This document shows positions 13,389 through 63,069 of a stretch of DNA of 64,000 nucleotides, in pieces (position 1 is the first letter of the stretch; the number at the start of each line of letters is the position of its first letter). This DNA is from Psychrobacillus vulpis (lineage in GTDB: Bacteria > Bacillota > Bacilli > Bacillales_A > Planococcaceae): assembly GCF_006861825.1 (NCBI RefSeq), contig NZ_VDGI01000002.1, positions 190,716 to 254,715 of the forward strand, given 5' to 3'. The notes under the pieces are model-generated. The model was not told the origin of the DNA, did no database searches, and worked only from the letters and a program-made list of their open reading frames with translations. The translations under genes were made by a program, and so were the position numbers.

Positions 13389-14198
13389 TCACCCAATAAA
13401 ATTAGCAAGCTCTTGGTTAAATTTCTCAAGCTCACAATAGAATAACCCATGTCCACTAAATTCAAATGGAATCAATATGGAGTTTTTAATGCTGGAATGC
13501 AATAGTTCTCCTAAAACGAAGGGGCATACTTTATCTTGTTTTCCATGCAAAATAGCAGTAGGAACTTGAATGAAAGATAAATCATTTCGTAGATCTTCAT
13601 CGCGAAGAGAAGTTAAGCATTTTGCAGTTGCATTACCGGAAGCCATTAGTCCGAGACCTTGGAACCAATCTATAAAGCTTTTAGTTAAATAACGCGCAAA
13701 GAAAATATCGCCAAAGTCACTTAGCATTTTGGGGCGATCAGTGTAGGTGGCTTTTATTAATTGATTCACTTCGTCTTTTGTCATTCCGTATGGGAAATTT
13801 GGTCGCTTTGTGAAAACAGGTGCCGCTGCTCCGATAAGTGCAAGTTTGGACACTTTATGCTCACGATGACGTGCCATGTAGCGAATGGAAATAGCTCCCC
13901 CCATTGAATGGCCGGCAAGTGTAATGTCCTCCAATTGTAGCGTGTCAATTACAACTCGAATGTCATCAGCTACTCGATTATAGGAATACCCGTCCCACGG
14001 TCTGCTGGACTTCCCAAATCCACGAATATCAATCCCAATACAACGATAGCCCATTGCTGGAAGAAAGTCGAACTGATATTCGAACATTTGATGATTTGCC
14101 GGCCATCCGTGAATAAACAAGATGGTTTTATTCGAAGACGAGTTAATATCCTCTACATAAATGTTTACACCTTTTTCCACCTTCACATAGTACCCCAT
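13389..14198 (-). CDS. alpha/beta-fold hydrolase
   Basis: About 269 residues from the ATG at 14198, which has GGAGG 7 nt upstream; the longer open frame adds an unsupported leader. Fold markers appear in order: LFIHGWPANHQMFEYQ (oxyanion region), GIDIRGFGKSSRPWDGYSY, the nucleophile elbow GHSMGG, the acid in HGKQDKVCP, and the catalytic His in SGHGLFYCE. This pattern is close to non-haem chloroperoxidase/arylesterase-like hydrolases. The substrate is unknown. There is no signal peptide, so it is cytoplasmic. It stands alone between the convergent SDR gene and the divergent secreted protein gene. Confidence 0.85.
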   Translation of the reverse strand: MGYYVKVEKGVNIYVEDINSSSNKTILFIHGWPANHQMFEYQFDFLPAMGYRCIGIDIRGFGKSSRPWDGYSYNRVADDIRVVIDTLQLEDITLAGHSMGGAISIRYMARHREHKVSKLALIGAAAPVFTKRPNFPYGMTKDEVNQLIKATYTDRPKMLSDFGDIFFARYLTKSFIDWFQGLGLMASGNATAKCLTSLRDEDLRNDLSFIQVPTAILHGKQDKVCPFVLGELLHSSIKNSILIPFEFSGHGLFYCELEKFNQELANFIG

Positions 14199-14361
14199 TA
14201 AAAAACCTCCATTACAAAGCAGATTAACTAATATATGAGTATTTAATAGTAGATATTCAAATAATGTATTAAATATCAATAATAAATAAAGATATTTTCA
14301 TATTATTGTATTATCTATACATATATTAACAATGGTGAGCGTAAAGAAGGGAGAATGTTTT

Positions 14362-47727: not shown

Positions 47728-48480
47728 TTGAGATTTATAGAAGAAGATTTTCGAGTACTTAGAGGACCTTTCGAATCTGGTAGACAAACTCCAGGTAATT
47801 TAGGTTTTACTTTAATTATTAGTATATTTTTACAAGCAATGCTCTATGCTCTAGAGTATTTTATGGCAGCAGATTCGACGATTTTTCCGTACAAAGATAA
47901 TATATTGCAAGTACATTTCTGGTTAACTGTTGTACTTGTTATATTATCTATTATTTATGCTATTCCTGCAGTTTATAAAAGAAGTGGAAAAATGCAGTAT
48001 CTTGTTACTATAATTGTTACTCAAAATATGTCTTCCATTCCATTTTTAATCATGGCTTTATTTTTAGTTGGAAAAGAGGGAGAGGGTATGATTGCTACTG
48101 AGGGTTCTCTACTTCGTTTCACTTTTATAATCCTATTAATTGGACTACTGATTTTTATATTTACGTTTATTCGCTTTAATACGCTGCTACGCAAGGGACA
48201 TTATCGTAAAGGTTCAAAAAAAGATGAGTTGAGAGGACGATTTGAAAACACTTCTTATGTACCAGCTGCTATTATCGTTGGTCTCGGTATTGTATTTATT
48301 ATCCAATATATCGTTCGGAGTACTTCCATTGATGATATTAATATGATAGTGCTGATTGTTGGTGGGATCACTGCATTTTTTGTAATGCTCTTTATTTTAC
48401 CAGAGCAACTTGTTATTTTATATTGTAAATTCCGATTTAAGAGCTTCAATTTTAATGAGCGAGGTTATTTGAATAAATAG
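47728..48480 (+). CDS. six-helix membrane protein, probable immunity (paralogue 1)
   Basis: About 250 residues, starting at a TTG at 47728 so that MRFIEEDF aligns with the N-termini of the two following paralogues; no strong ribosome site is present. Six hydrophobic helices are visible (for example LGFTLIISIFLQAMLYALEY, VHFWLTVVLVILSIIYAI, YVPAAIIVGLGIVFIIQYIV). A conserved tail follows: LPEQLVILYCKFRFKSFNFN. I do not recognise the family with certainty; membrane proteins of S. aureus ess loci (DUF5079, or the TsaI/DUF443 type) are possible relatives. The position behind a membrane-active LXG toxin makes immunity the best guess. Confidence 0.75.
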   Translation: MRFIEEDFRVLRGPFESGRQTPGNLGFTLIISIFLQAMLYALEYFMAADSTIFPYKDNILQVHFWLTVVLVILSIIYAIPAVYKRSGKMQYLVTIIVTQNMSSIPFLIMALFLVGKEGEGMIATEGSLLRFTFIILLIGLLIFIFTFIRFNTLLRKGHYRKGSKKDELRGRFENTSYVPAAIIVGLGIVFIIQYIVRSTSIDDINMIVLIVGGITAFFVMLFILPEQLVILYCKFRFKSFNFNERGYLNK

Positions 48481-48505
48481 GGTTGAATTGAAGTGGAGTG
48501 CTCAA

Positions 48506-49264
48506 ATGACAAGAAAACTAAAGGAAGAAGATTTTGAAGTAATGAGAGGACCCTTTGAGTATGGAAGACAAAGACCGGAAGCTTTATCAGGAGTTCTAAT
48601 ATTATCTATATTTTTGCAGGCTTTACTATTTGCCTTAGAGTATTTTATGGCAGGTCGTCACACCGTCTATCCATATAATGACCAAATTCTTTTGATCCAT
48701 TTTGTAGTTACAGTAATACTCAGTGTATTGTCACTTATCTATGCAATGCCTATAGTATATAAGAAAAGTGAAAAGATGCAGTATTTGCTATCCATTTTAG
48801 TATCACAAAACTTATTTTCAATTTCCTTTTTAATAAGTGCATTATTTATAATCGGTTACGATGGGGAAGGAAAGGTTGCTAATGCAGAATCTCTCATTCA
48901 GTTCACGTATATCGTACTAGGAATTGGATTCTTAATCTTTGTTGCTACTTTTATACGCTTTTATATTCTATTGAGAAAAGGACATTATAGAAAAGGTTCT
49001 AAAAAAGATGCATTGAGGAGTCGTTTTGAAACTACATCTTATGTGCCGACTGCAATTATTGGAAGTCTAGGATTAGTTTTTATCATTCAATATATTGTGA
49101 GAACGTCTGCTATTAATGATCTTAATATGATGATACTCATTGTAAATGGTATTGGACTGTTTTTTGTAATGTTATTTATATTGCCAGAGCAACTTGTTAT
49201 TTTATATTGTAAATTCCGATTTAAAAGCTTTAATTTTAATGAGAGAGATAATTTGAATAAATAG
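48506..49264 (+). CDS. six-helix membrane protein, probable immunity (paralogue 2)
   Basis: About 252 residues from the ATG at 48506 (leader GTGGAGTGCTCAA). It matches paralogue 1 over the full length: N-terminal EEDFEVMRGPFEYGRQRPEA, the same six helices, and the identical tail LPEQLVILYCKFRFKSFNFN. Differences cluster in the extracytoplasmic loops after helices 1 and 3 (GRHTVYPYNDQ and GYDGEGKVANAES), where a toxin would be met. It is separated from paralogue 1 by 25 bases. Confidence 0.75.
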   Translation: MTRKLKEEDFEVMRGPFEYGRQRPEALSGVLILSIFLQALLFALEYFMAGRHTVYPYNDQILLIHFVVTVILSVLSLIYAMPIVYKKSEKMQYLLSILVSQNLFSISFLISALFIIGYDGEGKVANAESLIQFTYIVLGIGFLIFVATFIRFYILLRKGHYRKGSKKDALRSRFETTSYVPTAIIGSLGLVFIIQYIVRTSAINDLNMMILIVNGIGLFFVMLFILPEQLVILYCKFRFKSFNFNERDNLNK

Positions 49265-49288
49265 GTTTAAATTGAGTGGAGTGCTTAA

Positions 49289-50053
49289 ATGTCAAAAAAA
49301 CTAAAGGAAGAAGATTTTGAGGTACTTAGAGGCCCTTTAGAAGCAGGAAGACAAAGCCCAGGAAGTATAGGATTTGCGCTAATATTAGGTATTATATTTC
49401 AGCCGATGCTCTATGCTTTAGAGTATTTTGTTGCAGCGGATTCAACCATCTTTCCGTATAAGGAAGAGATATTGAAGGTTCATTTTTGGTTGACAGCTGT
49501 GCTAGTTGTGTTATCTCTCATTTATGCAATTCCAGTTGTATATAAAAACAGTGAAAAAATGCAGTATTTTGTTTCTATATTAATATCACAAAACATCTTC
49601 TCCCTTTCCATTTTTATCTGTGCAATATTTATTATTGGAAAAGAGGGAGAAGGGATGACTGCTACTCCTAGTTCACTCTTGAATTTCACTTATATTTTAT
49701 TAGTTTTAGGTTTTTTGGTTTTTATAGCTACGTTTATTCGTTTCTATATTCTATTGAAAAAAGGTCATTATAAAAAAGGCTCTAAAAAGGAAGAGTTGAG
49801 AAATCGATTCGAAACATCCAAATATATGCCAGTGGCTATTCTAGGTGGTCTTGGAATCGTTTTTATTATCCAATACATTGTTAGGAACACTGCTATGAAT
49901 GATTTGAATGCTATGGTTGTTATTGTAATTGGGATTGCTTTGTTCTTTGTCATGCTATTTGTTTTACCGGAACAGCTTGTTATTTTGTATTGTAAATTCC
50001 GATTTAAAAGCTTTAATTTTAATGAGCGTGGTTATCTATATAAGAAGGAATAA
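49289..50053 (+). CDS. six-helix membrane protein, probable immunity (paralogue 3)
   Basis: 254 residues from the ATG at 49289, whose leader GTGGAGTGCTTAA is nearly identical to that of paralogue 2. N-terminus EEDFEVLRGPLEAGRQSPGS, the same six helices and tail. Its loop after helix 1 (AADSTIFPYKEE) is closer to paralogue 1 than to paralogue 2, so the three genes form a mosaic family. It ends with YLYKKE in place of LNK. Confidence 0.75.
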   Translation: MSKKLKEEDFEVLRGPLEAGRQSPGSIGFALILGIIFQPMLYALEYFVAADSTIFPYKEEILKVHFWLTAVLVVLSLIYAIPVVYKNSEKMQYFVSILISQNIFSLSIFICAIFIIGKEGEGMTATPSSLLNFTYILLVLGFLVFIATFIRFYILLKKGHYKKGSKKEELRNRFETSKYMPVAILGGLGIVFIIQYIVRNTAMNDLNAMVVIVIGIALFFVMLFVLPEQLVILYCKFRFKSFNFNERGYLYKKE

Positions 50054-52083: not shown

Positions 52084-52102
52084 TATAGAATTGTTACAGG
52101 TG

Positions 52103-52128
52103 TGTTACAGGTGCCTGGCACCAGTAAC
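52103..52128. repeat. dispersed palindrome, copy 10
   Basis: TGTTACAGGTGCC-T-GGCACCAGTAAC, with one arm mismatch. Seven bases from the 3' end of the IclR-type gene. Confidence 0.85.
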
Positions 52129-52135
52129 CATAAAG

Positions 52136-52873
52136 TTATGTGGAGGAGCCTAGTTTTTCGGAAATTGTATTGCCTGCTTCTAGAACCTTATTAATTAGAA
52201 ATTCTAGTCGATTATCGGTTAGGTTGAAGCTGACGAAGCCGATACTGATTGCCCCTATTACATCTCCAAAACCATTTACAACTGCTACTGCTACAGAGGA
52301 TGTGCCTTCCGTTTTTTCGGCGTGGCTTGTTGCATAGCCCTGTTTTTTTATTTGTTGAAGGAGTGTTTGCATTTCTAGCACTTGTTCTTCCGAGAGTAGC
52401 TCTTTTAAAATTGCAGTTGCCTTTTCGCGTGGCATTGCAGCTAGCATTGCTTTATTTGCTGCTCCAATATTCATAGGAATGCGCATTCCAAGTTGGTCTA
52501 CAATGCGAATCGGATTGTTTTCACTGTCAATTCTTTCAACGACGAGTGCCTCTAATCCCACAGGCTTACTAAGGTACACACTTTCGTCTACTTCTCTCAT
52601 TAACTTTTCTAACACAGGCCTGATTTTATTTACATAATCCATCGTGTCATATACTTGTAAACCATATTCTAACCAAATCGTGCCTAGTCGATAAGTTTTT
52701 GTTCCTTCGTCTTGTTCAACCATTCCTTGTTTCATCATTGCTTGTAGTAATCTGTGCATTGTACTAAGTGGTAGCTCACATTGTTTGGATAAATCCGAAA
52801 TGGATACACCGTGCTCAGCAGCATTTGCTGCCAAAACCTTAGCTACTGTCATTGCACGAGTAATGGACTGCAT
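52136..52873 (-). CDS. IclR-family transcriptional regulator
   Basis: About 245 residues from the ATG at 52873 (AGGAGGTG seven bases upstream). The N-terminal winged helix (residues about 2-65: VSISDLSKQCELPLSTMHRL, LLQAMMKQGMVEQ) is followed by the IclR effector-binding domain (RIPMNIGAANKAMLAAMPRE, QGYATSHAEKTEGTSSVAVA, NGFGDVIGAISIGF). It is divergent from the amidinotransferase operon. Two palindromes lie just downstream of that operon's consensus promoter, which fits repression relieved by a substrate such as an arginine derivative; the ligand is inferred only. Confidence 0.9.
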   Translation of the reverse strand: MQSITRAMTVAKVLAANAAEHGVSISDLSKQCELPLSTMHRLLQAMMKQGMVEQDEGTKTYRLGTIWLEYGLQVYDTMDYVNKIRPVLEKLMREVDESVYLSKPVGLEALVVERIDSENNPIRIVDQLGMRIPMNIGAANKAMLAAMPREKATAILKELLSEEQVLEMQTLLQQIKKQGYATSHAEKTEGTSSVAVAVVNGFGDVIGAISIGFVSFNLTDNRLEFLINKVLEAGNTISEKLGSST

Positions 52874-52949
52874 AAAAGGCACCTCCTGATTGAGTAAAAA
52901 TCACTTAAATAATATTTCAAAATAGCGAATTTTAATATTCTAAATATTA

Positions 52950-52978
52950 TTGACATTGTATCATGTTAGCACTATATT
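52950..52978 (+). promoter_or_regulatory. promoter of the arginine-derivative operon
   Basis: TTGACA (52950-52955), 17 bases, TATATT (52973-52978): a near-consensus sigma-A promoter about 60 bases before the first start codon. Confidence 0.75.
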
Positions 52979-52990
52979 TTAAATATAAAC

Positions 52991-53028
52991 TTTCCGATGT
53001 ACGGAAACGTTTTCCACTATGCGGAAAA
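52991..53028 (+). promoter_or_regulatory. tandem palindromic operators, probable IclR-type sites
   Basis: Two adjacent palindromes, TTTCC-GATGTAC-GGAAA (52991-53007) and TTTTCC-ACTATGC-GGAAAA (53010-53028), centred 19-20 bases apart (about two helix turns). The second overlaps the ribosome site of the first gene. The TTTCC/GGAAA arms resemble known IclR-family sites. Confidence 0.7.
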
Positions 53029-53039
53029 GGAGAGACGAA

Positions 53040-53912
53040 ATGTCCTATAATTCATCTATGTACAAAAAACTAGAAAGAGTTATTGTGAAGCATCCAAACG
53101 AAGCTTTTATTAGTCAAGAACATCTTGCAGAAGCATGGAAAACTTACAATTACTTAGAGCAACCAAATTTTGAAGAGGCTCTTCGTGAATATAAACAATT
53201 CATCGAAATTCTAGAAAAACATGTTCCTCAAATTGATTATTTACCTGCCTCAGACAAAGTAGGTTTGGATTCAATTTACGCACATGATCCAGTGAAGTTT
53301 ACACCTGCTGGAGCAATAATTTTGAAATCAGGCAAAAAGCTAAGACAGCCTGAAGCAGAAGTTTATAAAGAATTTTTAATAGAAAAAGGGATTCCTATTG
53401 TTGGAGAGTTAACTGGCGATGCTGTATGTGACGGTGGGGATATTGTTTGGTTAGATGATAAAACGTTTGTAGTTGGTCGCGGATACCGTACAAATGATGA
53501 AGCAATTCGTCAATTAAAAGAAATGACAGCATCATTTGTAGATGAATTTATCGTTGTACAGCTTCCACATGATCTAGGAGAAGCGGAATGCTTGCATCTA
53601 ATGTCTTTCATCAGCATGGTAGATAAAGATTTGGCAGCAGTACATTCTCCATTAATGCCTGTATTTTTCCGTCAGTTACTGATTGAGCGTGGCATTCAAT
53701 TAGTGGAAGTACCAAAAGCAGAATACGATAATCTTGGTTGTAATGTTCTAGCGTTAGCACCACGTGTGTGTGTAATGGTAGAAGGTAATGAATCTACAAA
53801 ACAACAACTGTTAGATGCAGGAGCTACAGTTTATGAATACAAAGGACGCGAAATCAGTGTATTAGGAACTGGCGGTCCAACATGTCTAACAAGTCCTGTA
53901 ATAAGAGATTAA
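53040..53912 (+). CDS. amidinotransferase/DDAH-superfamily enzyme
   Basis: About 290 residues from the ATG at 53040 (AAGGAG eight bases upstream; the ATG at 53019 lies in the operator). It has the five-bladed propeller fold of arginine-modifying enzymes. Recognisable points are SIYAHDPVKF (substrate Asp region, about 85), CDGGDIVW (about 133), the catalytic His in GEAECLHLMSF (about 183), and the nucleophile Cys in GGPTCLTSP (about 282). It should hydrolyse or transfer the amidino group of arginine or a methylated arginine. A second, distinct family member follows within 15 bases, so the two probably act on different compounds or in sequence. Confidence 0.85.
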   Translation: MSYNSSMYKKLERVIVKHPNEAFISQEHLAEAWKTYNYLEQPNFEEALREYKQFIEILEKHVPQIDYLPASDKVGLDSIYAHDPVKFTPAGAIILKSGKKLRQPEAEVYKEFLIEKGIPIVGELTGDAVCDGGDIVWLDDKTFVVGRGYRTNDEAIRQLKEMTASFVDEFIVVQLPHDLGEAECLHLMSFISMVDKDLAAVHSPLMPVFFRQLLIERGIQLVEVPKAEYDNLGCNVLALAPRVCVMVEGNESTKQQLLDAGATVYEYKGREISVLGTGGPTCLTSPVIRD

Positions 53913-53927
53913 TAGGGGGAAAATAAA

Positions 53928-54695
53928 ATGAGTCAATTTAAAAATGTTATCGCAAAAACACCTGGAAAAAGTTATGTAGAAGGATTAACAACATCTGATC
54001 TTGGAAAACCAGATTATGAAAAACTATTAGTTCAGCATGAAGCTTATGTAGAAACATTGAAAAAGTGTGGAGTAGAAGTAACACTTCTTTCTGCAAGTGA
54101 GGAATTTCCAGATTCAACGTTTGTAGAAGATGCTGCAGTACTTACAACTGAGTTTGCTGTTGTTACGAATCCTGGTGCGGAATCTCGTAATGGAGAGATT
54201 GTTGAAATTGAAAGCGTTTTAAAAGACTTCTATAAGAAGTTTCATTATATAAAATCACCTGGAACACTTGATGGTGGGGATATTCTACAAGCAGATAATC
54301 GTTTTTATATCGGAATTTCTGAACGTACGAATGAAGAAGGGGCTCGCCAGTTAAAAGAAATTCTAGAGGGTGAAGGATTTGAAGCAACAATCATACCTCT
54401 AAAAAAATTCTTCCATTTGAAAACGGGTATCGCTTATTTAGGGAATAACAAAATGGTCGTTGCAGGCGAATTTGTGGATCATCCAGCATTTGATTCATAC
54501 GAAAAAATCGTTATTAGCAGTGAAGATGAATACTCTGCAAACTGCATTCGCGTGAATGATTATGTAATTATCCCAGAGGGGTATAGCGAAACGAAACGCA
54601 AAATTAATGAGGCTGGATATGAAACAATTGAACTAGATATGTCTGAGGTTCGTAAACAAGATGGTGGTTTAAGCTGTTTATCTTTGAGATTTTAG
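53928..54695 (+). CDS. ddaH: dimethylarginine dimethylaminohydrolase-like enzyme
   Basis: A 255-residue DDAH-type protein. DSTFVEDAAVLTTEFAVVTN (about 64-83), GTLDGGDIL (about 115-123), the catalytic His in KFFHLKTG (about 163), and the nucleophile Cys in DGGLSCLSLRF at the very C-terminus (about 249) match this family. DDAH cuts methylated arginines to citrulline and methylamines. The size fits bacterial DDAH. It is the second gene of an IclR-controlled operon with an amino acid permease and a RocB-like protein. Confidence 0.87.
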   Translation: MSQFKNVIAKTPGKSYVEGLTTSDLGKPDYEKLLVQHEAYVETLKKCGVEVTLLSASEEFPDSTFVEDAAVLTTEFAVVTNPGAESRNGEIVEIESVLKDFYKKFHYIKSPGTLDGGDILQADNRFYIGISERTNEEGARQLKEILEGEGFEATIIPLKKFFHLKTGIAYLGNNKMVVAGEFVDHPAFDSYEKIVISSEDEYSANCIRVNDYVIIPEGYSETKRKINEAGYETIELDMSEVRKQDGGLSCLSLRF

Positions 54696-54720
54696 TTAAA
54701 TAGATAGGGGGAGGGATGTT

Positions 54721-56142
54721 ATGTCTAATATTGGGGATCCATCACAACAAAATCTTTTAAATCGCTCTATGAAAAGCCGTCATTTGTTGATGCTTTCTCT
54801 TGGAGGAGTAATTGGGACGGGGTTATTTTTAAATGCAGGGTATACAATTAATCAAGCAGGTCCGGGGGGGGCTATACTTGGTTACTTGTTCGGTGGTTTA
54901 ATCTTATATATGGTTATGGTTTGTCTAGGTGAGCTTGCTGTTTATATGCCAGTAACTGGCTCTTTCCAAACATATGCAACACGCTTTATTAGTCCATCTG
55001 CTGGGTTTTCACTAGGATGGATGTATTTTGTAGGATCGGCTGCTACAGCGGGTGTAGAATTTACAGCAGCTGGAATACTTATGAAACATTGGTTCCCAGA
55101 TGTTCCAGTCTGGATTTGGTGTGCTATTTTCATGGTAGTATTATTTGCTCTGAATGCGCTTACAACAAAAGCATTTGCTGAAGCGGAATTTTGGCTTGCG
55201 GGTATTAAAGTAGTTGCGGTAGTTCTGTTTATTATCATTGGTGTTGCAGTAATTTTCGGTATTATTCCACTGGAAGAGAGAGCTACACCATTTGTTACTA
55301 ATTTAGCACCTTCAGGACTGTTCCCAGCTGGAATTGCTATTGTTTTTGTAACAATGATGAACGTAATATTCTCCTATCAAGGATCTGAGTTAGTAGGTAT
55401 TGCTGCTGGAGAAACAGAAAATCCAGAAAAGAATATTCCAAAAGCGATTCGAACAATTCTTATTAGAATCGTCGTGTTTTATATTGCTTCAATTATCGTA
55501 TTATCTGCTATTTTTCCAGCATCTGAACTTGGGCTACTCGAAAGTCCTTTCGTTACATTGATGAATTTAGCTGGCATACCATTTGCAGGTGACATTATGA
55601 ACTTTGTTATTTTAACTGCCATTTTGTCGGTAGGTAATTCATGTTTATATGCTGCAACACGTTTGCTGTGGTCAATGGCTAAAGAAGGAATGGCACCAAA
55701 AGTATTTGGTCGACTTTCTAAACGAAAAGTTCCACTAGCAGCATTAATATTCACGATGGCATTCTCTTTATTGTCATTATTGACAAGTGTAATGGAAGCG
55801 GACACAGTGTTTGTATTATTAATGTCGATAGCAGGAATTTCTGTCACTATTTCTTGGATGGGGATTGCGACATCACAATTAATGTTCCGTCGCCATTATA
55901 TAAAGAATGGTGGTAAATTGGAGGACTTAGGTTATAAAGTTCGATTCTACCCGTTCGTTCCGATTTTCTGTATCGCGTTTTGTTTATTGATATTAGTGTT
56001 TTTAGCGTTCGATCCTACACAACGAGTTGGGCTTTATTATGGGGTAGGCTTTTTCGTAGCTTGTATGCTATTCTATAAATTGAAATTAAGTAAGAAGGAT
56101 AAAGCAGCTACAGCAAATAGTAAGGTTGCCTCTGAACAATAA
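54721..56142 (+). CDS. APC-family amino acid permease
   Basis: A 473-residue transporter with 12 predicted helices. The N-terminus has SRHLLMLSLGGVIGTGLFLNAGYTI, the substrate-binding first helix of amino acid permeases of the RocE/GABA-permease branch; YQGSELVGIAAGETENPEKN (about residues 218-237) is the family signature. It probably imports arginine or a methylated or otherwise modified arginine, given its operon. GGGGGAGGG lies upstream of the ATG at good spacing. Its C-terminal part is normal. Confidence 0.88.
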   Translation: MSNIGDPSQQNLLNRSMKSRHLLMLSLGGVIGTGLFLNAGYTINQAGPGGAILGYLFGGLILYMVMVCLGELAVYMPVTGSFQTYATRFISPSAGFSLGWMYFVGSAATAGVEFTAAGILMKHWFPDVPVWIWCAIFMVVLFALNALTTKAFAEAEFWLAGIKVVAVVLFIIIGVAVIFGIIPLEERATPFVTNLAPSGLFPAGIAIVFVTMMNVIFSYQGSELVGIAAGETENPEKNIPKAIRTILIRIVVFYIASIIVLSAIFPASELGLLESPFVTLMNLAGIPFAGDIMNFVILTAILSVGNSCLYAATRLLWSMAKEGMAPKVFGRLSKRKVPLAALIFTMAFSLLSLLTSVMEADTVFVLLMSIAGISVTISWMGIATSQLMFRRHYIKNGGKLEDLGYKVRFYPFVPIFCIAFCLLILVFLAFDPTQRVGLYYGVGFFVACMLFYKLKLSKKDKAATANSKVASEQ

Positions 56143-56174
56143 TAACTATTTGTTCAGAATATTCATAATAATTT

Positions 56175-56195
56175 TGGTGCCTGGCACTAGTAACA
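56175..56195. repeat. dispersed palindrome, copy 11 (partly decayed)
   Basis: TGGTGCC-T-GGCACTAGTAACA; one arm carries a C-to-T change. It lies inside the operon, between the permease and RocB-like genes, just before the latter's ribosome site. Confidence 0.8.
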
Positions 56196-56210
56196 AAGGA
56201 GATATATAAG

Positions 56211-57809
56211 ATGAGTCAATTATTGTGGAGTACGCCAGAATCGCTTCGAAATTTGTTATGTGAAATTGTTAGTTGGGATAGTATTACGTTAACGGAAGGT
56301 GAACGTGCTTTTGCTCCGAAAGTGGCTGATAAATTAAGAGAATTGGATTATTTCCGTGAGAATCCATCCCATTTAGAGCTACATGATGCAGGTCTAGGTA
56401 GACATGCTGTGACAGCATTGTATAAACACCCAGAAGCAACAGAAACGGTAGTATTAATTAGCCATTTTGATACAGTTCAGACGGAGGAGTATGGTGTACT
56501 AGAGCCACTAGCTTACTTTCCAGAAGAACTAACGAAAAAGCTATTAGAACATAAAGAAGATCTTCCAGAATCTGCGCGTATTGACTTGGAAACAGGGAAA
56601 TATTTATTTGGTCGTGGCACAATGGACATGAAAATGGGACTTGCTCTTCATATGCAATTGATTGAAAAGGCGAGCACGGAGCATTGGCCGATTAATTTAA
56701 TTTTAACGACTGTTCCAGATGAAGAAGTGAACTCAGCAGGAATGCGTGCAGCAGTTACCGAGCTTGTACGAATTCGTGAAGAGCATGGATTAACTTATAA
56801 GCTTTATTTAAATAGTGAACCATGTTTCTCCCAAAAACCTAATGATATTGCAGAGTATATTTATTCTGGAACGATTGGAAAAATTATGCCTGCAGCATTA
56901 TTTTATGGGAAAGAGACGCATGTTGGTGAGCCAATGAAAGGTATGACTGCGAACTACATCGCATCCTATTTGACTCAGCGTATGGAATGGAATCCTTTAT
57001 TCCGAGAGACAGATTTAGGAGAAAGCACACCACTTCCGGTTTCATTGCAACAAAAAGATTTGAAAATGTCTTATTCGACCCAAACTCCATACCGTGCAGT
57101 GGCACTTTACAACGTATTTTTACTGAAACGTACTGCATCAGAAGTGATGGATTTGTTCGAACAAGTTGCAGTGGAAGCAATGGACGTTTTGAACGAAAAC
57201 TATAAAGTCATTTGCGAGCGTGAGAAGGTGTCAGGTGTAGGAGAAGTGAAGGTTCTACGCTATGAACAGCTTTTAGCACATGCAATTCAAAAATTAGGTA
57301 CTGCAGAAGTAGAGCGTTTGAAAAACGAAGCTCTTCAAAATGATGAATGGGACGATCGCGAGAAATCACTTCGTATTGTCGATAACCTAATGATTCAATG
57401 TCAAGAGCTTGCACCTGCAACAGTTCTATTATTCGCACCACCATATTATCCAGCTGTAAATACGTCAGACGATCCACTAGTAATTGAATTGGTGGAACTA
57501 ATGCAAAAATCGGCTGAAACATTTAATAATAAAGTAGATCAAATCCATTACTTCAATGGTATTTGTGATTTGAGCTATGTTAACTATACAGACGACTCAA
57601 ATGGTTGGGCTGCTTTCGAAAGTAACACTCCAGTATGGGGAGACACATATAGCATCCCATTCGAAGACATGGCTCAACTGAAAGGGCCAGTGTTGAACGT
57701 AGGTCCATTTGGTAAAGATGCACACCAAAGAACAGAGCGTCTACACGTAGATAGCGCATTTGTTGAAATGCCTGTCATGTTGGAAACTCTTATTAAAAGC
57801 CTATACTAA
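56211..57809 (+). CDS. rocB: RocB-like M20-family arginine-catabolism protein
   Basis: A 532-residue member of the M20 peptidase family closely resembling Bacillus RocB in order of motifs: LISHFDTVQT (metal ligands, about 85), FGRGTMDMKMGLALH (about 133), TVPDEEVNSAGMRA (about 168), and FFNGICDLSY-type segment near 448. RocB belongs to the arginine/ornithine degradation operon in Bacillus subtilis, where its biochemical step is not established. Here it sits with two amidinohydrolase-like enzymes and a permease, not with rocA or rocD. AAAGGAG precedes the ATG. It ends the operon. Confidence 0.85.
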   Translation: MSQLLWSTPESLRNLLCEIVSWDSITLTEGERAFAPKVADKLRELDYFRENPSHLELHDAGLGRHAVTALYKHPEATETVVLISHFDTVQTEEYGVLEPLAYFPEELTKKLLEHKEDLPESARIDLETGKYLFGRGTMDMKMGLALHMQLIEKASTEHWPINLILTTVPDEEVNSAGMRAAVTELVRIREEHGLTYKLYLNSEPCFSQKPNDIAEYIYSGTIGKIMPAALFYGKETHVGEPMKGMTANYIASYLTQRMEWNPLFRETDLGESTPLPVSLQQKDLKMSYSTQTPYRAVALYNVFLLKRTASEVMDLFEQVAVEAMDVLNENYKVICEREKVSGVGEVKVLRYEQLLAHAIQKLGTAEVERLKNEALQNDEWDDREKSLRIVDNLMIQCQELAPATVLLFAPPYYPAVNTSDDPLVIELVELMQKSAETFNNKVDQIHYFNGICDLSYVNYTDDSNGWAAFESNTPVWGDTYSIPFEDMAQLKGPVLNVGPFGKDAHQRTERLHVDSAFVEMPVMLETLIKSLY

Positions 57810-57812
57810 TAG

Positions 57813-57851
57813 AAAAAGTGACTCCATTCATGTCAATGGAGTCACTTTTTT
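57813..57851. terminator. strong terminator of the arginine-derivative operon
   Basis: AAAAAGTGACTCCATT and AATGGAGTCACTTTTT form a 16-bp perfect stem; it can act for both strands. Confidence 0.95.
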
Positions 57852-57878
57852 AACGCTTTTTTTGGTTTGTTACGGAAA

Positions 57879-57905
57879 TGTTACTGGTGCCTGGCACCAG
57901 TAACA
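57879..57905. repeat. dispersed palindrome, copy 12
   Basis: Perfect 27-nt TGTTACTGGTGCC-T-GGCACCAGTAACA, with extra CGTAACATT repeats next to it (to about 57930). Confidence 0.9.
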
Positions 57906-57930
57906 TTCACCCGTAACATTCTTGTAACAC

Positions 57931-59040
57931 TTATTGGATGAGGAAGGATTCTGTTGTTAGTTCTTTTAGTTTTTTCTCGTCTACTTCGATTCCTAAGCCT
58001 GGTGCTTCAGAGAGATAGACATAGGGAATTTCAAAGTTGAGCTTAGCTATATCGTCACTAAACATTAAAGGTCCAACAAGTTCATTGCTATGAATGGATT
58101 TTTTCGCTAATGCTAAGTGTAGCCCAGCAGCAGAGGCAACTGCAGATTCAACCATGGAACCGATTTGGCAGTCGATGCCGCCAAGCTCTGCTTGATGTAC
58201 TAATTGTGACGCTGGGTATAAGCCCCCACACTTCATTAGCTTAATGTTTATTTTATCTGCAGCTCGTTTAACAATTACCTCTTTTAATTCTTTTGTACCA
58301 TGCAGACCTTCATCAATCATGACTGGAATTGACGTTTTTTGTTTCACTTCTAGTAGTGCATCGATATCACTAGCAACTACTGGCTGTTCAATCAATTCGA
58401 TTTCACAAGCTTTAATTCGATCGAGCACGTACATCGTATTGCTGCTATTAACCCAGCCTTGATTCGCATCGACTTTGATCGGTATGCCCGAACCAACAGC
58501 TGCACGTACGGCACAAATACGTTCGAAATCTAACTCCTTATTTGTTCCAACTTTAAGCTTTAACGACGTATATCCGTTCGCTAATGCCGTTTTAGCTTCT
58601 TCAGCCATTTCTTCTGGCGTTAAGATACTTATCACTTTAGGAACCTCTAACTTCTCATGGTATTGCCCACCTAATAAGTTATACACGGGCTGACCAGTTG
58701 CTTTCCCCATAATGTCATAGCACGCAATATCAATAGCTGCTTTAGCAGAAGGTACGTCTAGTACGATTTGATTCATTTTGTCATGCATTTTTTCTATTTG
58801 GAATGGGTTATAACCAATCAAAGAAGGGGCAAGTGTCTTCGTCAAAACCGCATACGTGCTTTCCCATGTTTCTCCTGTTACATGTTCGTCCGGTGTTGCT
58901 TCTCCAAACCCAATAATTCCATTATCAGTTTCCATTTTTACAATAATCGATGGCATATCCATATACGTGTGATAGCTAATAATAAATGGGGTGATAAAAG
59001 GAAGTCGAATAGCAAACACTTCAATCGATTTAATTTTCAT
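57931..59040 (-). CDS. enolase-superfamily (mandelate racemase/MLE type) enzyme
   Basis: About 369 residues from the ATG at 59040 (GGAGG eight bases upstream; overlaps the preceding gene). Metal and catalytic motifs: LKLKVG (KxK, about 160), VDANQGW (about 190), IEQP (about 218), DEGLHG (about 242) and INIKLMKCGG (second Lys, about 265). These give the two-base mechanism of racemases and epimerases. Fold and N-terminal GETWEST resemble Ala-Glu epimerase relatives. The D-x-D motif that dipeptide epimerases use to hold the substrate amino group is not found after VESAVASAAG; the sequence reads NELVGPLMFSDD. The substrate is therefore uncertain. The gene is coupled to the amidohydrolase gene before it. 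Confidence 0.85.
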   Translation of the reverse strand: MKIKSIEVFAIRLPFITPFIISYHTYMDMPSIIVKMETDNGIIGFGEATPDEHVTGETWESTYAVLTKTLAPSLIGYNPFQIEKMHDKMNQIVLDVPSAKAAIDIACYDIMGKATGQPVYNLLGGQYHEKLEVPKVISILTPEEMAEEAKTALANGYTSLKLKVGTNKELDFERICAVRAAVGSGIPIKVDANQGWVNSSNTMYVLDRIKACEIELIEQPVVASDIDALLEVKQKTSIPVMIDEGLHGTKELKEVIVKRAADKINIKLMKCGGLYPASQLVHQAELGGIDCQIGSMVESAVASAAGLHLALAKKSIHSNELVGPLMFSDDIAKLNFEIPYVYLSEAPGLGIEVDEKKLKELTTESFLIQ

Positions 59041-60199
59041 CCTCATTACCTCCTCTTAAATAATTCAGCACACCAGTTGTAAATAACTCAACTCCAACAG
59101 GCAGCATATCTTCATCAATATCAAATTTTGGATGATGATGACCGTAAGGAGTATCTTCCTTACCAACTCCTATAAAGGTAAAAGAAGCTGGGATTTCATG
59201 CGAGTAATAGGAAAAGTCTTCACTACCTAAAATAGGGTCGATTTCGACAACTTTTTCTTCTCCAAAAAGAGAGATAGCTGTTTTTTGAATAAAAGCAGTT
59301 AACGCTTTGTCATTTAACACAGGTGGATCACCGTGAATATAATCAAGCTCATACGTAGCTCCAAAAGATTTACAAACGCCTGCAATAATATCTTCTATTC
59401 TTTTTTCAATAAGCAAGGAAGTATCTTTATTGAAATATCGAACTGTACCTGATGCAAATGCAGTATCCGGTATTACATTATAGCTTGTCCCTGAATGTAA
59501 CTCTCCGATACTAATAACTGCTTGATCAATTGCTTTAATGCTGCGACTTACAATCGTGTGGAGTTGAGTAATAATTTGCGAGATGACAAGCGTTGGATCT
59601 ATCGTTTCTTCAGGCATCGATCCATGACCGCCTTTTCCAAAAATGCGAATGATAAATCGGTCGGCACCTGCCATAGTAGGTCCTTGTCGAACGCCTATTA
59701 ATCCGGATTTTAATGGTTGCCATAAATGATATCCAAAAATTGCTTCGATATTGTTTAATCCGTTTGCGCCAACGATCTCTACTGCACCACCAGGAACCTC
59801 TTCTTCGGCATGTTGGAATAATAGATGAATAGTGCCGTGTATTGCTGATTTATTTGAAACTAGTAATCTAGCAATACCTAAAAGAATAGACATGTGTCCA
59901 TCGTGCCCACAGGCGTGCATAACACCATTGTTTACAGAACTGAATGGAAGCCCTGTTTCTTCTAGTATTGGAAGCGCGTCCATATCAGAACGTATTGCTA
60001 CAGTTTTACCAGGATGATCTCCTTTAATGATTCCGATGACGTCTTTACCAGTAATAGAATACGTTTCTATTCCTAAACCATGAAGCTGACTTGTAATATA
60101 AGTTTTTGTTTCTTTCTCTTGATGTGAAAGTTCTGGATGCGTGTGTAAATAGCGACGTTGTTCGATAATCCATTCTGTTAAATTAGTATCAGGTTTCAT
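59030..60199 (-). CDS. M20-family amidohydrolase
   Basis: About 389 residues from the ATG at 60199 (AAAGGA upstream; the open frame is six codons longer). Typical N-acyl-amino-acid amidohydrolase/hippurate hydrolase: RSDMDALPI (about 66-74), HACGHDGHMS (about 96-105), QHAEEEVPGG (about 129-138), FGKGGHGSMPEE (about 184) and LGSEDFSYY (about 345). These residues bind two metal ions. It should cleave an acyl or peptide amide bond in the cytoplasm. Its end overlaps the start of the racemase-type gene by 11 bases, so translation is coupled. Confidence 0.9.
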   Translation of the reverse strand: MKPDTNLTEWIIEQRRYLHTHPELSHQEKETKTYITSQLHGLGIETYSITGKDVIGIIKGDHPGKTVAIRSDMDALPILEETGLPFSSVNNGVMHACGHDGHMSILLGIARLLVSNKSAIHGTIHLLFQHAEEEVPGGAVEIVGANGLNNIEAIFGYHLWQPLKSGLIGVRQGPTMAGADRFIIRIFGKGGHGSMPEETIDPTLVISQIITQLHTIVSRSIKAIDQAVISIGELHSGTSYNVIPDTAFASGTVRYFNKDTSLLIEKRIEDIIAGVCKSFGATYELDYIHGDPPVLNDKALTAFIQKTAISLFGEEKVVEIDPILGSEDFSYYSHEIPASFTFIGVGKEDTPYGHHHPKFDIDEDMLPVGVELFTTGVLNYLRGGNEDEN

Positions 60200-60235
60200 T
60201 GCTTCATTTCCTTTCAAAAAACTAATAGACTATTA

Positions 60236-61645
60236 TTAAGAAAATCCTATATAGTGTGCGATTGTAACGAAAATTGCACCTAACGCATAGTGGATAATAA
60301 TAAGTGGTAAAATCCATTTTACCCATTTCACCCAAGAAATTCTTGCGAGTGCGAGACCTGCCATGAAATACCCGGATGTTGGAGTGAAAATATTAGATAT
60401 TCCATCTCCAAACTGGAAGGCAAGTACTGCTGTCTGACGAGTAACCCCTACAAGATCAGAAAGTGGTGCCATAATTGGCATTGTCAGAGCAGCCTGTCCG
60501 CTACCAGATGGAATAATGTAGTTTAGTAAACATTGAACGATATACATCCCAAAAGCTGCAAAACCGGATGGCATTTCTCCAATAACAGAAGAGAATCCGT
60601 AAAGAATTGTATCCATAATTTTACCGTCTTGAAGTACGACTAGAATCGCGTTTGCTACCCCAACTACAAGTGCTCCCATAACAAGTACACGGCAGCCTTC
60701 AATAAAGGACTCGGAAATTTGGGTGAAATTCATTTTCCCAGTTAATCCAATTAGAATCCCCATTAATAGAAATAACCCGGCAATTTCTGATAAATACCAG
60801 CCTAACTTAATAACACCGAATGCAAGTGTAACAAGTGTTGCAAGCAAAATAGTGAAGATGAATTTGTGACGACCAGTAAGCGTTAATATTGTTTCAGGTA
60901 TTTTGAAACTGTCACTGCTTACTTCATTATAAAGTAAGCTTTTTGTAGGATCTTTCTTAATTTTCCTAGCATATCGCATAACGTACCAAATACTAACTGA
61001 TAGAAAAATAACAAAGAATATAATTCGTAAATAAAGACCTGAGAACAAAGGAATTTCTGCAATACCTTGTGCAACACCTACCGTAAAAGGATTCATAAAT
61101 GCTGCAGTAAATCCTGCGGATGTTCCAAGAAGGACTACCGCTGCTCCAACCATGGAGTCATATCCTATTAAAAGCATCAAAGGTACTAAAATCGTAATAT
61201 ATGGAATTGTTTCTTCTGCTAAACCAAGCATAGCACCAGATAAACCAAAAAACGTCATCAGAATAGGTATTATTAAGATTTCTTTCCCCTTCATTTTTTG
61301 AGAAATAGAACCAACTGCCGCCTCAATAGCACCAGTTGCTTGTAATATCCCAAAAGAACCCCCAACTATGAAAATATAGAAAATAATACTTGCTGAATTT
61401 ACCATTCCTTTATGAACTGCTTGGAAAATGGACCAAAAGCCTGCTGGTGTAGACTCTGCTTCTTGGTAAGTATCAGCTACGACAATTGTTCTTCCTGCAT
61501 CGTCCACCATTCGCTCGTATTCCCCTGCTGGAAATATGTAAGTTGAAATTGCTGCAACAATAATAAGTGAAAACAATATGACATACACATGTGGAATAGA
61601 AAATTTCCCCTTCTTTTTTTGCTCATGAACATTTGTTGCTCCCAT
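60236..61645 (-). CDS. YfcC-family (DcuC-like) transporter
   Basis: A 469-residue membrane transporter. After a basic N-terminus, IPHVYVILFSLIIVAAISTY and YIFPAGEYERM are the family's first helix and loop. About 11-12 helices follow, including VVLLGTSAGFTAAFMNPFTVG (binding hairpin) and the matching C-terminal SGSGQAALTMPIMAPLSDLVG. The family resembles C4-dicarboxylate and arginine/ornithine carriers; substrates in most bacteria are unknown. It is the first gene of the operon with the amidohydrolase and the racemase-type enzyme, so it probably imports their substrate, perhaps an acylated amino acid or peptide. AGAGGGG precedes the ATG. Confidence 0.87.
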   Translation of the reverse strand: MGATNVHEQKKKGKFSIPHVYVILFSLIIVAAISTYIFPAGEYERMVDDAGRTIVVADTYQEAESTPAGFWSIFQAVHKGMVNSASIIFYIFIVGGSFGILQATGAIEAAVGSISQKMKGKEILIIPILMTFFGLSGAMLGLAEETIPYITILVPLMLLIGYDSMVGAAVVLLGTSAGFTAAFMNPFTVGVAQGIAEIPLFSGLYLRIIFFVIFLSVSIWYVMRYARKIKKDPTKSLLYNEVSSDSFKIPETILTLTGRHKFIFTILLATLVTLAFGVIKLGWYLSEIAGLFLLMGILIGLTGKMNFTQISESFIEGCRVLVMGALVVGVANAILVVLQDGKIMDTILYGFSSVIGEMPSGFAAFGMYIVQCLLNYIIPSGSGQAALTMPIMAPLSDLVGVTRQTAVLAFQFGDGISNIFTPTSGYFMAGLALARISWVKWVKWILPLIIIHYALGAIFVTIAHYIGFS

Positions 61646-61662
61646 TTATTTTTCCCCTCTCT

Positions 61663-61701
61663 ATTAACGTTCGGTATATGGTCGTTAATTCGTTCATTAT
61701 A
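61663..61701 (-). promoter_or_regulatory. promoter -10 and palindromic operator of the YfcC operon
   Basis: On the minus strand TATAAT (61701-61696) is followed directly by a palindrome with 7-bp arms ATTAACG and CGTTAAT around 13 bases (61663-61689). No good -35 is seen 17 bases upstream, so an activator or this palindrome may control it. The neighbouring regulator gene is the obvious candidate protein. Confidence 0.6.
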
Positions 61702-61776
61702 CTTAAAGGGGAATTGAGAAGTCGATGAGTTTTTTGATAATTTGTAATTGACAATAAAATGAATGCTGTATACATT

Positions 61777-63069
61777 TTATATTTTGGGAAGCTTTAATCG
61801 ATATATGGAACGAGGCCTACCGCTTAAATGAGGTTGTTCTTCTCCAATTATTTCAAGATAACCACCGTCAGCAAACTTCTTCAATATACGCTCAGCTGCA
61901 CGTTTACCAATGCCGAAATAATCTGAAATATCACTAGATGTGAAGCGATTAACAGGTCGAGTTTTATAAAATTGAAACATTTTGTTGAGATTAGTTACGC
62001 TTATTCCAAGTTCCTTTGAAATTTTAATAAACTCCTTATTTTCACTTTTTAAAAGGGAACTATTCTTTTGATTGTTAAAGGGAGAAGTGACAATTTGTTC
62101 TTCCGTAACGACGTGTAGCGTATTGTCCATTGGATTTTTTTCTGAATAAGATAGCGCGATATTTGCATTTTTTTCTGCTTCAACAATCGTCATACCATAA
62201 CCGAAACCAATGCTCACAGTCGATTCTAAAGTAAATAAAGATAGGAAGTACTGATCCAGAAGTTCTTTATTTTCCAGTAAATACTCGATTCCACTGCGTG
62301 TTCCATAAATATAAAAAAGCTGTGGACTTACTTTTTTGACTGAGCAATTGATAGTCTTGGCTATGTTATGTAGTTCTGTAGTGAAATTTTCTTTATTATT
62401 TTTAGAATGAAATGCGAAAGCACCTACTGCAATTTGTGATTTTTTTGCTCGATTGAGAATTCCTAAATTACGTGCTTCAATGAGTGAATCGACAATGTTT
62501 TTTTTAGGTTCCATTAATCGTAAACATGGAATATTTAGCGCGACAAGCCTATCATAAACGGCGTGAATACTCGTAACAACGTAGGAAATCTGTTTAGTTT
62601 CCCAAAGCTTGATATGTTTGTTGATAACGTCCTCTATTTGGAATACTTTGTCCGTTTCTTCTTTTAACCAAGGGTAATCTTGAATGAAAGAAGATGCTAA
62701 TTCAATATTCAGTTGTTTGACAACCTCTTGCAAAAACGTACGATCAGTCAGGTCAATTGATAGCTTGTTGTAGTCTATTTTTAGATGGTTTGTAATATAA
62801 AGAAGAGTAAGCGCTACACTTAACTCATTATCCGGTATATAAAGGGCTGGTTTATTTAATTTTGCTAACTCTTTTTTCGCATAGTAAAAAGGAAGTTCAC
62901 CTGAGAAAAGTATGACATCGCATTGTTTCGCTTCATGGAGAAGTGTTCTTGCTTCTTCTGGTGTTTGGTACATAATTAAGGACACTTCTATATTTTCTAA
63001 ATTATCCTCCAATGCTTGTACCTGTTGTAATGTCTCCTCTGAACCAATCAATGCAATTCGTATTGCCAT
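61777..63069 (-). CDS. transcriptional regulator with sensor, degenerate GGDEF-like and winged-helix parts
   Basis: A 430-residue protein. Residues about 1-180 look like a two-lobed sensor (IRIALIGSEETLQQVQAL; CDVILFSGELPFYYA) of the PrpR-N type. Residues about 215-310 carry SIGFGYGMTIVEAEKNANIA, which reads like the end of a GGDEF/nucleotide-cyclase-like domain; the GGDEF signature itself is missing, so cyclase activity is unlikely. The C-terminal 75 residues form a winged helix (TSSDISDYFGIGKRAAERIL, then a wing with LEIIGEEQPHLSGRPRSIYR). It probably senses the substrate of the adjacent YfcC-amidohydrolase-racemase operon and controls it. No usual regulator family name fits all three parts. 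Confidence 0.75.
   Translation of the reverse strand: MAIRIALIGSEETLQQVQALEDNLENIEVSLIMYQTPEEARTLLHEAKQCDVILFSGELPFYYAKKELAKLNKPALYIPDNELSVALTLLYITNHLKIDYNKLSIDLTDRTFLQEVVKQLNIELASSFIQDYPWLKEETDKVFQIEDVINKHIKLWETKQISYVVTSIHAVYDRLVALNIPCLRLMEPKKNIVDSLIEARNLGILNRAKKSQIAVGAFAFHSKNNKENFTTELHNIAKTINCSVKKVSPQLFYIYGTRSGIEYLLENKELLDQYFLSLFTLESTVSIGFGYGMTIVEAEKNANIALSYSEKNPMDNTLHVVTEEQIVTSPFNNQKNSSLLKSENKEFIKISKELGISVTNLNKMFQFYKTRPVNRFTSSDISDYFGIGKRAAERILKKFADGGYLEIIGEEQPHLSGRPRSIYRLKLPKI

Follow-up and report, generated by a model that had tools for sequence, protein, structure and literature searches.

A window of 64,000 nucleotides from the 4.02-Mb genome of Psychrobacillus vulpis carries a gene for an IclR-family regulator and, divergent from it, a four-gene operon (53040-57809). 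The operon encodes a pentein that we name PEN1 (53040-53912), a DDAH-like protein, an amino acid permease and a homologue of RocB. These genes are inherited together, along with a conserved promoter-operator region, in many genomes. The operon may direct the IclR-controlled catabolism of N-substituted, chiefly methylated, arginines via citrulline to ornithine. We infer the enzyme activities, the transported substrate and the role of the repressor, and put the probability of this reading at about 0.5. The co-inheritance of the gene set, together with its conserved promoter-operator region, is much surer than the whole chain of reactions proposed here.

An IclR gene and a four-gene operon had been described at this position by a reader who saw only the letters of the window (the sequence-only reading). 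The frames, Pfam families, promoter and terminator of such a unit are all found.

52136-52882, minus strand: IclR-family regulator (IclR_C 103.3 bits and HTH_IclR 43.1 bits, both above cut-off)
52950-52978, plus strand: sigma-70-type promoter, TTGACA-17-TATATT, 11 of 12 consensus bases
52992-53006, no strand: first palindrome, TTCCGATGTACGGAA, TTCC-N7-GGAA, probable IclR operator
53012-53026, no strand: second palindrome, TTCCACTATGCGGAA, TTCC-N7-GGAA, probable IclR operator, 5 bases from the first
53040-53912, plus strand: PEN1, pentein of the ADI/DDAH superfamily, 290 residues (PF02274 77.5 bits, above cut-off)
53928-54695, plus strand: DDAH-like gene (ADI-family Pfam model 46.2 bits, above cut-off)
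54721-56142, plus strand: APC-family amino acid permease, presumed importer (AA_permease 447.7 bits, above cut-off)
56211-57809, plus strand: RocB homologue, M20-family amidohydrolase, proposed citrullinase (Peptidase_M20, PF01546, 35.7 bits, cut-off 24.6)
57812-57851, plus strand: intrinsic terminator at the operon end, 17-pair stem followed by a T run

The four genes are separated by gaps of 15, 25 and 68 bases. The PEN1 frame is listed with an ATG at 53019, and 53040 is an alternative start. The latter is likelier because it is preceded by AAAAGGAGAG. The promoter and the terminator are the best of their kinds across 52100-58100, a region that has no overall excess of such elements (17 promoter-like sites against a shuffled mean of 19.2, and five terminator-like sites against 4.3).

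Conservation of the gene set

The sequence-only reading had staked its proposal on whether the four genes keep company elsewhere, and they recur as a conserved unit in many genera. A set of 201 genomes was searched for homologues of PEN1, of the DDAH-like protein (orthologues being matches of at least 44% identity) and of the RocB homologue (E at most 0.001, a threshold that admits a few weak matches). Close PEN1 orthologues, with 64-100% identity, are present in 40 of the 201 genomes, including that of P. vulpis itself. Near PEN1 in these 40 genomes are a divergent IclR gene (40/40), DDAH (40/40), the permease (39/40) and the RocB homologue (38/40). Of the two genomes that have no RocB homologue at this site, one (L055) ends at a contig edge and the other (G007) carries a copy elsewhere. 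The gene order varies to some extent, and is PEN1-RocB-DDAH in genus g4. DDAH orthologues are found in 44 of the 201 genomes, which comprise all 40 with PEN1 and four others (G020, G033, G055 and G065). Of the 19 genomes in the genus of the window, 13 carry close orthologues of PEN1 and DDAH alike, and the other six carry neither. The genomes bearing PEN1 and DDAH are related to one another, and a hypergeometric value for their co-occurrence is consequently not a fair probability.

A second scan covered named genomes, from which the best 80 of 182 relatives were retained; neighbors were counted within 10 kb of PEN1. The 80 loci belong to Psychrobacillus, Sporosarcina, Lysinibacillus, Peribacillus, Cytobacillus, Neobacillus, Ureibacillus, Brevibacillus, Planococcus and other genera. 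They overlap the 201-genome set, several records being identical, so that the two sets of counts are not independent. IclR and DDAH genes are each found near PEN1 at 78/80 loci, the permease at 77/80 and the RocB homologue at 71/80; DDAH, permease and RocB homologue are all present at 70/80. The same-strand runs fall into 16 distinct gene lists, the commonest of which is that of the window (43/80). Transporters are exchanged or added among genomes (APC, ABC, SSF and AgcS types), and a YfcC-M20 gene pair is part of the operon at 11 loci. A chance clustering of these genes was considered and rejected in view of the 40/40, 39/40 and 38/40 co-occurrences and of the 70 loci that keep the set together in varied gene orders.

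Exceptions to the pattern often retain the missing genes at another site. The two loci that have no DDAH gene near PEN1 (L248 and L262) come from genomes with an IclR-DDAH-RocB unit elsewhere. Such a pair beside its own IclR gene would fit the suggestion of the sequence-only reading that RocB takes the step following DDAH. Among the nine loci that have no nearby RocB homologue, the sequence stops close to the operon in three (L212, L213 and L227), and two (L231 and L257) represent one strain. The homologue is found elsewhere in the genome for L206, L248, L252, L257 and L262. When six exceptional genomes were examined whole, all six contained both a RocB homologue and DDAH, each with at least 66% identity.

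Two loci are unusual in other respects. A record labeled Arthrobacter (L208) has the operon with 74-86% identity to the Psychrobacillus genes and lies among the Sporosarcina matches, which probably reflects a labeling error. At L225, a gene for a methyl-accepting chemotaxis receptor (13532-15223) is located 3' of RocB, and neither IclR nor the permease was found nearby.

Promoter and putative operator

At least one TTCC-N5-to-8-GGAA palindrome occurs within 220 bases upstream of PEN1 in 38 of the 40 regions from the 201-genome set. A pair of palindromes precedes PEN1 at 69 of the 80 named loci, and the remaining 11 have no pair there that is matched by the search expression used. In total, 73 pairs were found at the named loci compared to one in reversed sequence. 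The spacing between palindromes is 5 bases at 69/69 loci, though 4 to 6 were permitted. All 69 also have a sigma-70 promoter in the 60 bases 5' of the pair (mean mismatches 0.99, against 3.73 in shuffled sequence), and the promoter ends 10-14 bases from it. A repressor site directly downstream of a promoter is laid out in this way, and the pair is probably the operator of the adjacent IclR regulator. The gene set thus appears to be a co-regulated unit in many genera, to judge from its upstream sequences.

Four pairs at the named loci occur away from PEN1. Three are upstream of a relocated permease gene (L246, L258 and L263), which now lies beyond IclR and carries its own operator pair, and the fourth is upstream of a PatA-like gene. 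The P. vulpis genome contains a single pair when up to one mismatch is allowed. With the same tolerance, a search of 126 genomes returned 38 sites in 33 genomes, and a control with the reversed pattern returned 15 sites in 14 genomes. A lone site with one mismatch can therefore be due to chance.

Seven sites away from PEN1 were looked at, three with no mismatch (G064, G011 and G016) and four with one (G003, G010, G052 and G001); those in G018, G022, G127, G147 and G156, all with one mismatch, are outside the seven. The sites precede a YfcC-M20 pair in G064, G003 and G010, an M20 gene with a cluster of transporter-like genes in G011, and a lone RocB homologue in G016 and G052. The site in G001 is upstream of none of these gene types. 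In G010, a PEN1 fragment with two stops (L185, contig C10, 6179-6440) lies between the operator pair and YfcC-M20, and resembles a decayed copy of the operon.

The DDAH-like enzyme

The protein encoded at 53928-54695 matches Pseudomonas aeruginosa DDAH (3rhy) over residues 4-255 with 283 bits (E 2e-83). Alignment with 3rhy and 1h70 indicates that FPDS..FVED, the arginine of GAESR, RTN, HLKTG and SCxSLRF are all kept. These motifs hold the catalytic Cys and His and the residues that bind the arginine derivative in the P. aeruginosa enzyme, with roles that are taken in part from PMC11659421. The one departure is in the catalytic triad, where the acid is Asp rather than the Glu of Pseudomonas DDAH. 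Among 79 copies of the gene, FVED is matched in 76 and HLK in 78. The description of the second gene as DDAH-like by the sequence-only reading is borne out by this retention of methylarginine-hydrolase residues.

PEN1, a second pentein

The structure model of PEN1 (predicted local distance difference test score 86.4) is closest to arginine deiminase (ADI) in VIA-align, with Z 31.3 and a root-mean-square deviation of 2.3 over 280 residues, followed by DDAH (Z 27.7) and ArgZ (Z 27.2). Amidinotransferases share this fold and rank below ADI and DDAH (AGAT 4jdw, Z 25.0; SxtG, Z 25.4). Foldseek places DDAH first (E 2.3e-17). The sequence-only reading had called the first gene amidinotransferase-like, a label that the closest folds do not bear out; both structure comparisons put it nearer to DDAH and ADI.

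Judging from its alignment and model, PEN1 is a pentein with a predicted active site of Cys, His and an acidic residue. Cys282 and His186 are invariant, and Asp or Glu precedes GGD. The two carboxylate-binding arginines are present, as is one guanidinium-binding Asp. At the named loci, YAHD or YTHD is matched in 79/80, HLM in 79/80 (with one unmatched) and PTCL in 79/80. The Asp corresponding to D60 is unmatched by its search expression in 15/80, yet it is invariant in 46 aligned sequences. Unmatched entries for PEN1 and DDAH motifs mostly reflect narrow expressions of this kind.

ADI holds the guanidinium group of its substrate with two aspartates. The second of these, in the motif HLD, is replaced by Met in PEN1 (HLM). 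The corresponding position in DDAH is a Lys that lets the dimethylamino group fit, according to one study (PMC11659421). HLM and GGPTCLT are present in nine of nine diverse members from the phylum of the window and from Rhizobiales, and HLM, the guanidinium-pocket signature, is thus kept across Bacillota and Rhizobiales. PEN1 looks like a distinct and apparently undescribed pentein group whose substrate, as its motifs and gene contexts suggest, is probably an N-substituted arginine.

PEN1 also occurs in distant genomes. Eight of 398 genomes in a phylum-wide sample match the PEN1 profile at 1e-30, that of P. vulpis among them. In a genome from another class of the same phylum (L295), DDAH (51% identity), PEN1 (50%), an AgcS symporter gene, a GntR gene on the opposite strand and a RocB homologue (32%) form a row. 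In another (L297), OTC, argG, PEN1, an antiporter gene and argH run on one strand. The long open reading frame beside PEN1 in L297 has the size of RocB, and was rejected as such because it encodes an Na+/H+ antiporter family protein. The scanned neighbors of PEN1 in L296, L299 and L300 give no clear functional hint; those upstream of it in L300 resemble homoserine dehydrogenase and glutamate racemase genes. L298 is outside the neighbor scan, and the match in L301 does not have the HLM signature. The DDAH operon and the OTC-argG-argH cluster, as contexts of PEN1, would converge on citrulline. PEN1 is placed at this metabolite because it is the meeting point of DDAH, OTC, ArgG and the reaction proposed for RocB.

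Five relatives encoded on plasmids were aligned, and HLM is present in those from Shinella and Rhizobium and absent from those of Ensifer, Kozakia and Haladaptatus. An M20 gene beside the ADI-family gene of Kozakia was tried as a RocB candidate and rejected, as it gave no RocB match by tblastn (1e-4, at least 40% of the query). The ADI-family gene on the Haladaptatus salinisoli plasmid (L293) has the motifs VRD and HLA, which are not of PEN1 type. It is accompanied by genes for a nitrilase-type hydrolase, an Lrp regulator, a polyamine-type ABC transporter and an aminotransferase.

These results bear on the possibility that PEN1 acts on plain arginine, whether as a deiminase or as a dihydrolase like cyanobacterial ArgZ. 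The operon would then add another route for arginine, and DDAH would be a side entrance to it. The closeness of the PEN1 model to ADI and, to a lesser degree, ArgZ is compatible with such an activity. The OTC-argG-argH cluster recalls an ornithine-ammonia cycle, and five distant genomes have PEN1 and no DDAH. In addition, the guanidinium loop of the nine diverse members, which reads His-Asp in seven, is the ADI-like Arg-Asp in two. However, Met takes the place of the second guanidinium Asp of ADI at 79/80 loci and in 9/9 diverse members, the arcA model (TIGR01078) gives PEN1 65.1 bits against a cut-off of 489.1, and the P. vulpis genome already has an arginase. PEN1 was rejected as a classical ADI on the ground that HLM replaces HLD, and plain arginine is an unlikely substrate overall.

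The RocB homologue

The name RocB for the fourth gene is an assumed one that follows the label given by the sequence-only reading. None of the NCBIfam models that match the protein is named RocB. Its model (score 88.9 on the same scale as above) has DapE as the closest fold, with Z 28.1, and HFD, GRGTMDMK and PDEE are invariant in 45 aligned sequences. From its sequence and predicted structure, the protein is assigned to the M20 family of metal amidohydrolases. Among the 50 fold matches listed for it, no ureidohydrolase was recognized, a negative that covers only the families listed there. RocB is called a probable citrullinase in a review (PMC4813224).

RocB homologues are found in several other settings. 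A glutamate dehydrogenase gene is adjacent to some of those in Psychrobacillus, and a gene for a PatA-type aminotransferase is adjacent to some elsewhere. Ten proteins encoded near RocB homologues, from seven loci, were scanned and gave no sign of a roc cluster. A Priestia plasmid carries a RocB homologue with IclR and a divergent permease gene (52% identity to that of the window), and has neither DDAH nor PEN1 in the 15.6 kb seen. The P. vulpis genome itself encodes a second RocB homologue, 33% identical to the first (L130, contig C8, 58000-75000 of the genome G000; 7450-9102 within this piece). Its neighbors are GcvPA- and GcvPB-like genes, amino acid ABC transporter genes, an SDR gene and a gene for an AMP-binding enzyme.

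An M20 enzyme in the fourth position also raises the question of whether PEN1 itself might be the citrullinase, with the RocB homologue doing something else, such as deacylating an N-acylated arginine derivative. CtlX, a relative of ADI, is proposed to cut citrulline (PMC9007349). The likeness of the RocB homologue model to deacylases, and the presence of YfcC-M20 pairs within the operon or under its operator in relatives, would agree with a deacylase role. On the other hand, PEN1 retains one guanidinium Asp and has neither of the Asn replacements that mark CtlX (FPNN and HTN), and it would be wasteful to destroy citrulline in an OTC-argG-argH cluster. The pairing of DDAH with RocB in a unit without PEN1, seen in two genomes, is a further argument against this role of PEN1. 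PEN1 was rejected as a CtlX because it has YAHD or YTHD and HLM instead of these motifs, and it seems quite improbable that it is the citrullinase of the operon.

Proposed pathway

In the methylarginine pathway that we favor, IclR would occupy the two palindromes just 3' of the promoter and block transcription when no substrate is available. In the presence of an inducer, the APC permease would take up a modified arginine. DDAH would convert asymmetric dimethylarginine and monomethylarginine to citrulline and methylamines, and PEN1, the other pentein hydrolase, whose guanidinium pocket differs, might carry out a like reaction on some related derivative of arginine. Citrulline, as the product common to both, would then be hydrolyzed by the RocB homologue, an M20 amidohydrolase, which would yield ornithine, CO2 and ammonia. 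Ornithine could be taken on to glutamate and further by RocD, whose gene is at another site in the genome, and by the glutamate dehydrogenase that is encoded adjacent to RocB in some relatives.

Ornithine aminotransferase (RocD) is found in the genome with 549.1 bits (cut-off 378.4) and arginase with 366.2 bits (cut-off 227.6). The statement of the sequence-only reading that the arginase route is absent is therefore correct for the window and does not extend to the genome. A search of the P. vulpis genome for carbamate kinase gave no match.

Several observations weigh against the pathway as drawn. The DDAH-like protein scores 322.6 bits with the NCBIfam dimethylargininase equivalog NF045658, below the cut-off of 450, and for this reason the gene is filed only as DDAH-like. 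The best folds of the RocB homologue (DapE, LysK, ArgE and carboxypeptidase G2) are those of enzymes that cut acyl or amide bonds. RocB homologues are present in 118 of the 201 genomes and are common outside the operon, with some adjoining unrelated genes. In a tree of 68 copies (38 from operons and 30 others, with L115 and L287 being one locus counted twice, and with copies below 50% identity or containing a stop omitted), the operon and stand-alone labels switch at least eight times, compared to a mean of 22.5 and a least value of 16 in shuffles. The copies are partly clustered, yet they would appear to have been joined to the operon or freed from it repeatedly, as a general enzyme would be. 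Carbamate kinase is above cut-off in eight of the 27 PEN1 genomes searched, with a split copy in one more (G017). These are a minority, and most of the 27 would therefore need another route from citrulline to ornithine.

Other points of this kind concern PEN1 and the substrate. Among the distant genomes with HLM-type PEN1, a DDAH orthologue exists only in that of L295, and the other five have a best match of at most 37% identity. The HLM-type gene on the Rhizobium plasmid is accompanied by ABC transporter, TetR and aminotransferase genes, and aminotransferase-like and M20-like genes are found by tblastn near that of the Shinella plasmid. PEN1 therefore does not depend on DDAH. The YfcC-M20 pairs that carry the operator or join the operon hint at an acylated substrate.

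This last observation leads to the possibility that the operon serves some other guanidino or ureido amino acid, such as hydroxyarginine, canavanine or an acylated or opine-type arginine, and that the specificity of the DDAH-like enzyme has shifted. YfcC-M20 genes under a like operator, together with the M20-like and aminotransferase-like genes near Shinella PEN1, suggest acylated or transaminated intermediates, and the swapping or addition of APC, ABC, SSF and AgcS transporters among genomes could accompany a change of substrate. Against this, the residues of the DDAH-like protein match those of Pseudomonas DDAH save for the Asp in place of Glu in the triad, and we hold a substrate of this sort to be rather improbable.

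The methylarginine pathway can also be stated in a stronger form. The PEN1 group would take an arginine derivative that DDAH cannot use, for example symmetric dimethylarginine, and the RocB family would be an aerobic citrullinase or would act on N-methylcitrulline, so that the operon would suffice to convert every methylarginine to ornithine. We regard this version as speculative and doubtful. The RocB homologue is linked to a DDAH-like enzyme, whose characterized relatives make citrulline, by its place in the gene order, by co-inheritance and by the operator that they share, and because of this link the reaction of the homologue is directly testable. If the pathway is real, many soil Bacillales feed on methylarginines, which are presumably derived from proteins.

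Comparison with known systems

The closest parallel is the methylarginine catabolism of P. aeruginosa (PA1196 and DDAH; Lundgren 2017, as presented by two citing papers), in which DDAH is likewise placed under a dedicated regulator for methylarginine use. As far as those papers describe it, that regulator is the sigma-54-dependent DdaR, whereas Psychrobacillus has an IclR protein with a putative tandem operator, and its operon adds a second pentein and the RocB homologue. Compared to known methylarginine systems, what is new is the IclR neighbor with its operator and the presence in the operon of a second pentein and a RocB homologue. Among the matches listed from the open-access literature, there is no description of the gene set, and one elsewhere is possible.

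The other known systems share single features with the operon. CtlX (PF02274) belongs to the same superfamily as PEN1 and is tied to citrulline use; its FPNN and HTN replace FTRD and HLD, in contrast to the YAHD/YTHD and HLM of PEN1. The ArcABC pathway similarly hydrolyzes a guanidine to citrulline, but the P. vulpis genome has no carbamate kinase match, and PEN1 (290 residues) does not have one of the ADI aspartates. ArgZ/AgrE arginine dihydrolases resemble PEN1 in their pentein fold (Z about 27) and differ in having a second domain. RocB of Bacillus subtilis is a probable homologue of the fourth gene, a likeness drawn from the name. It belongs to the rocABC unit, which depends on SigL and RocR (PMC4348106), and the Psychrobacillus homologue is instead located beside IclR, DDAH and PEN1.

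Neighboring genes

A group of genes on the minus strand (57931-63069), located 3' of the operon, encodes an MLE-superfamily enzyme, an M20 amidohydrolase, a YfcC-type carrier and a protein that matches PrpR_N weakly, under the cut-off. Its YfcC and M20 proteins are about 40-45% identical to those of the pairs that share the operon or the operator in other genomes. The search of the P. vulpis genome for operator pairs found none at this group. On the other side of the operon, at about 47740-50053, there are three tandem paralogous genes for membrane proteins, with 67-100% identity to the third.

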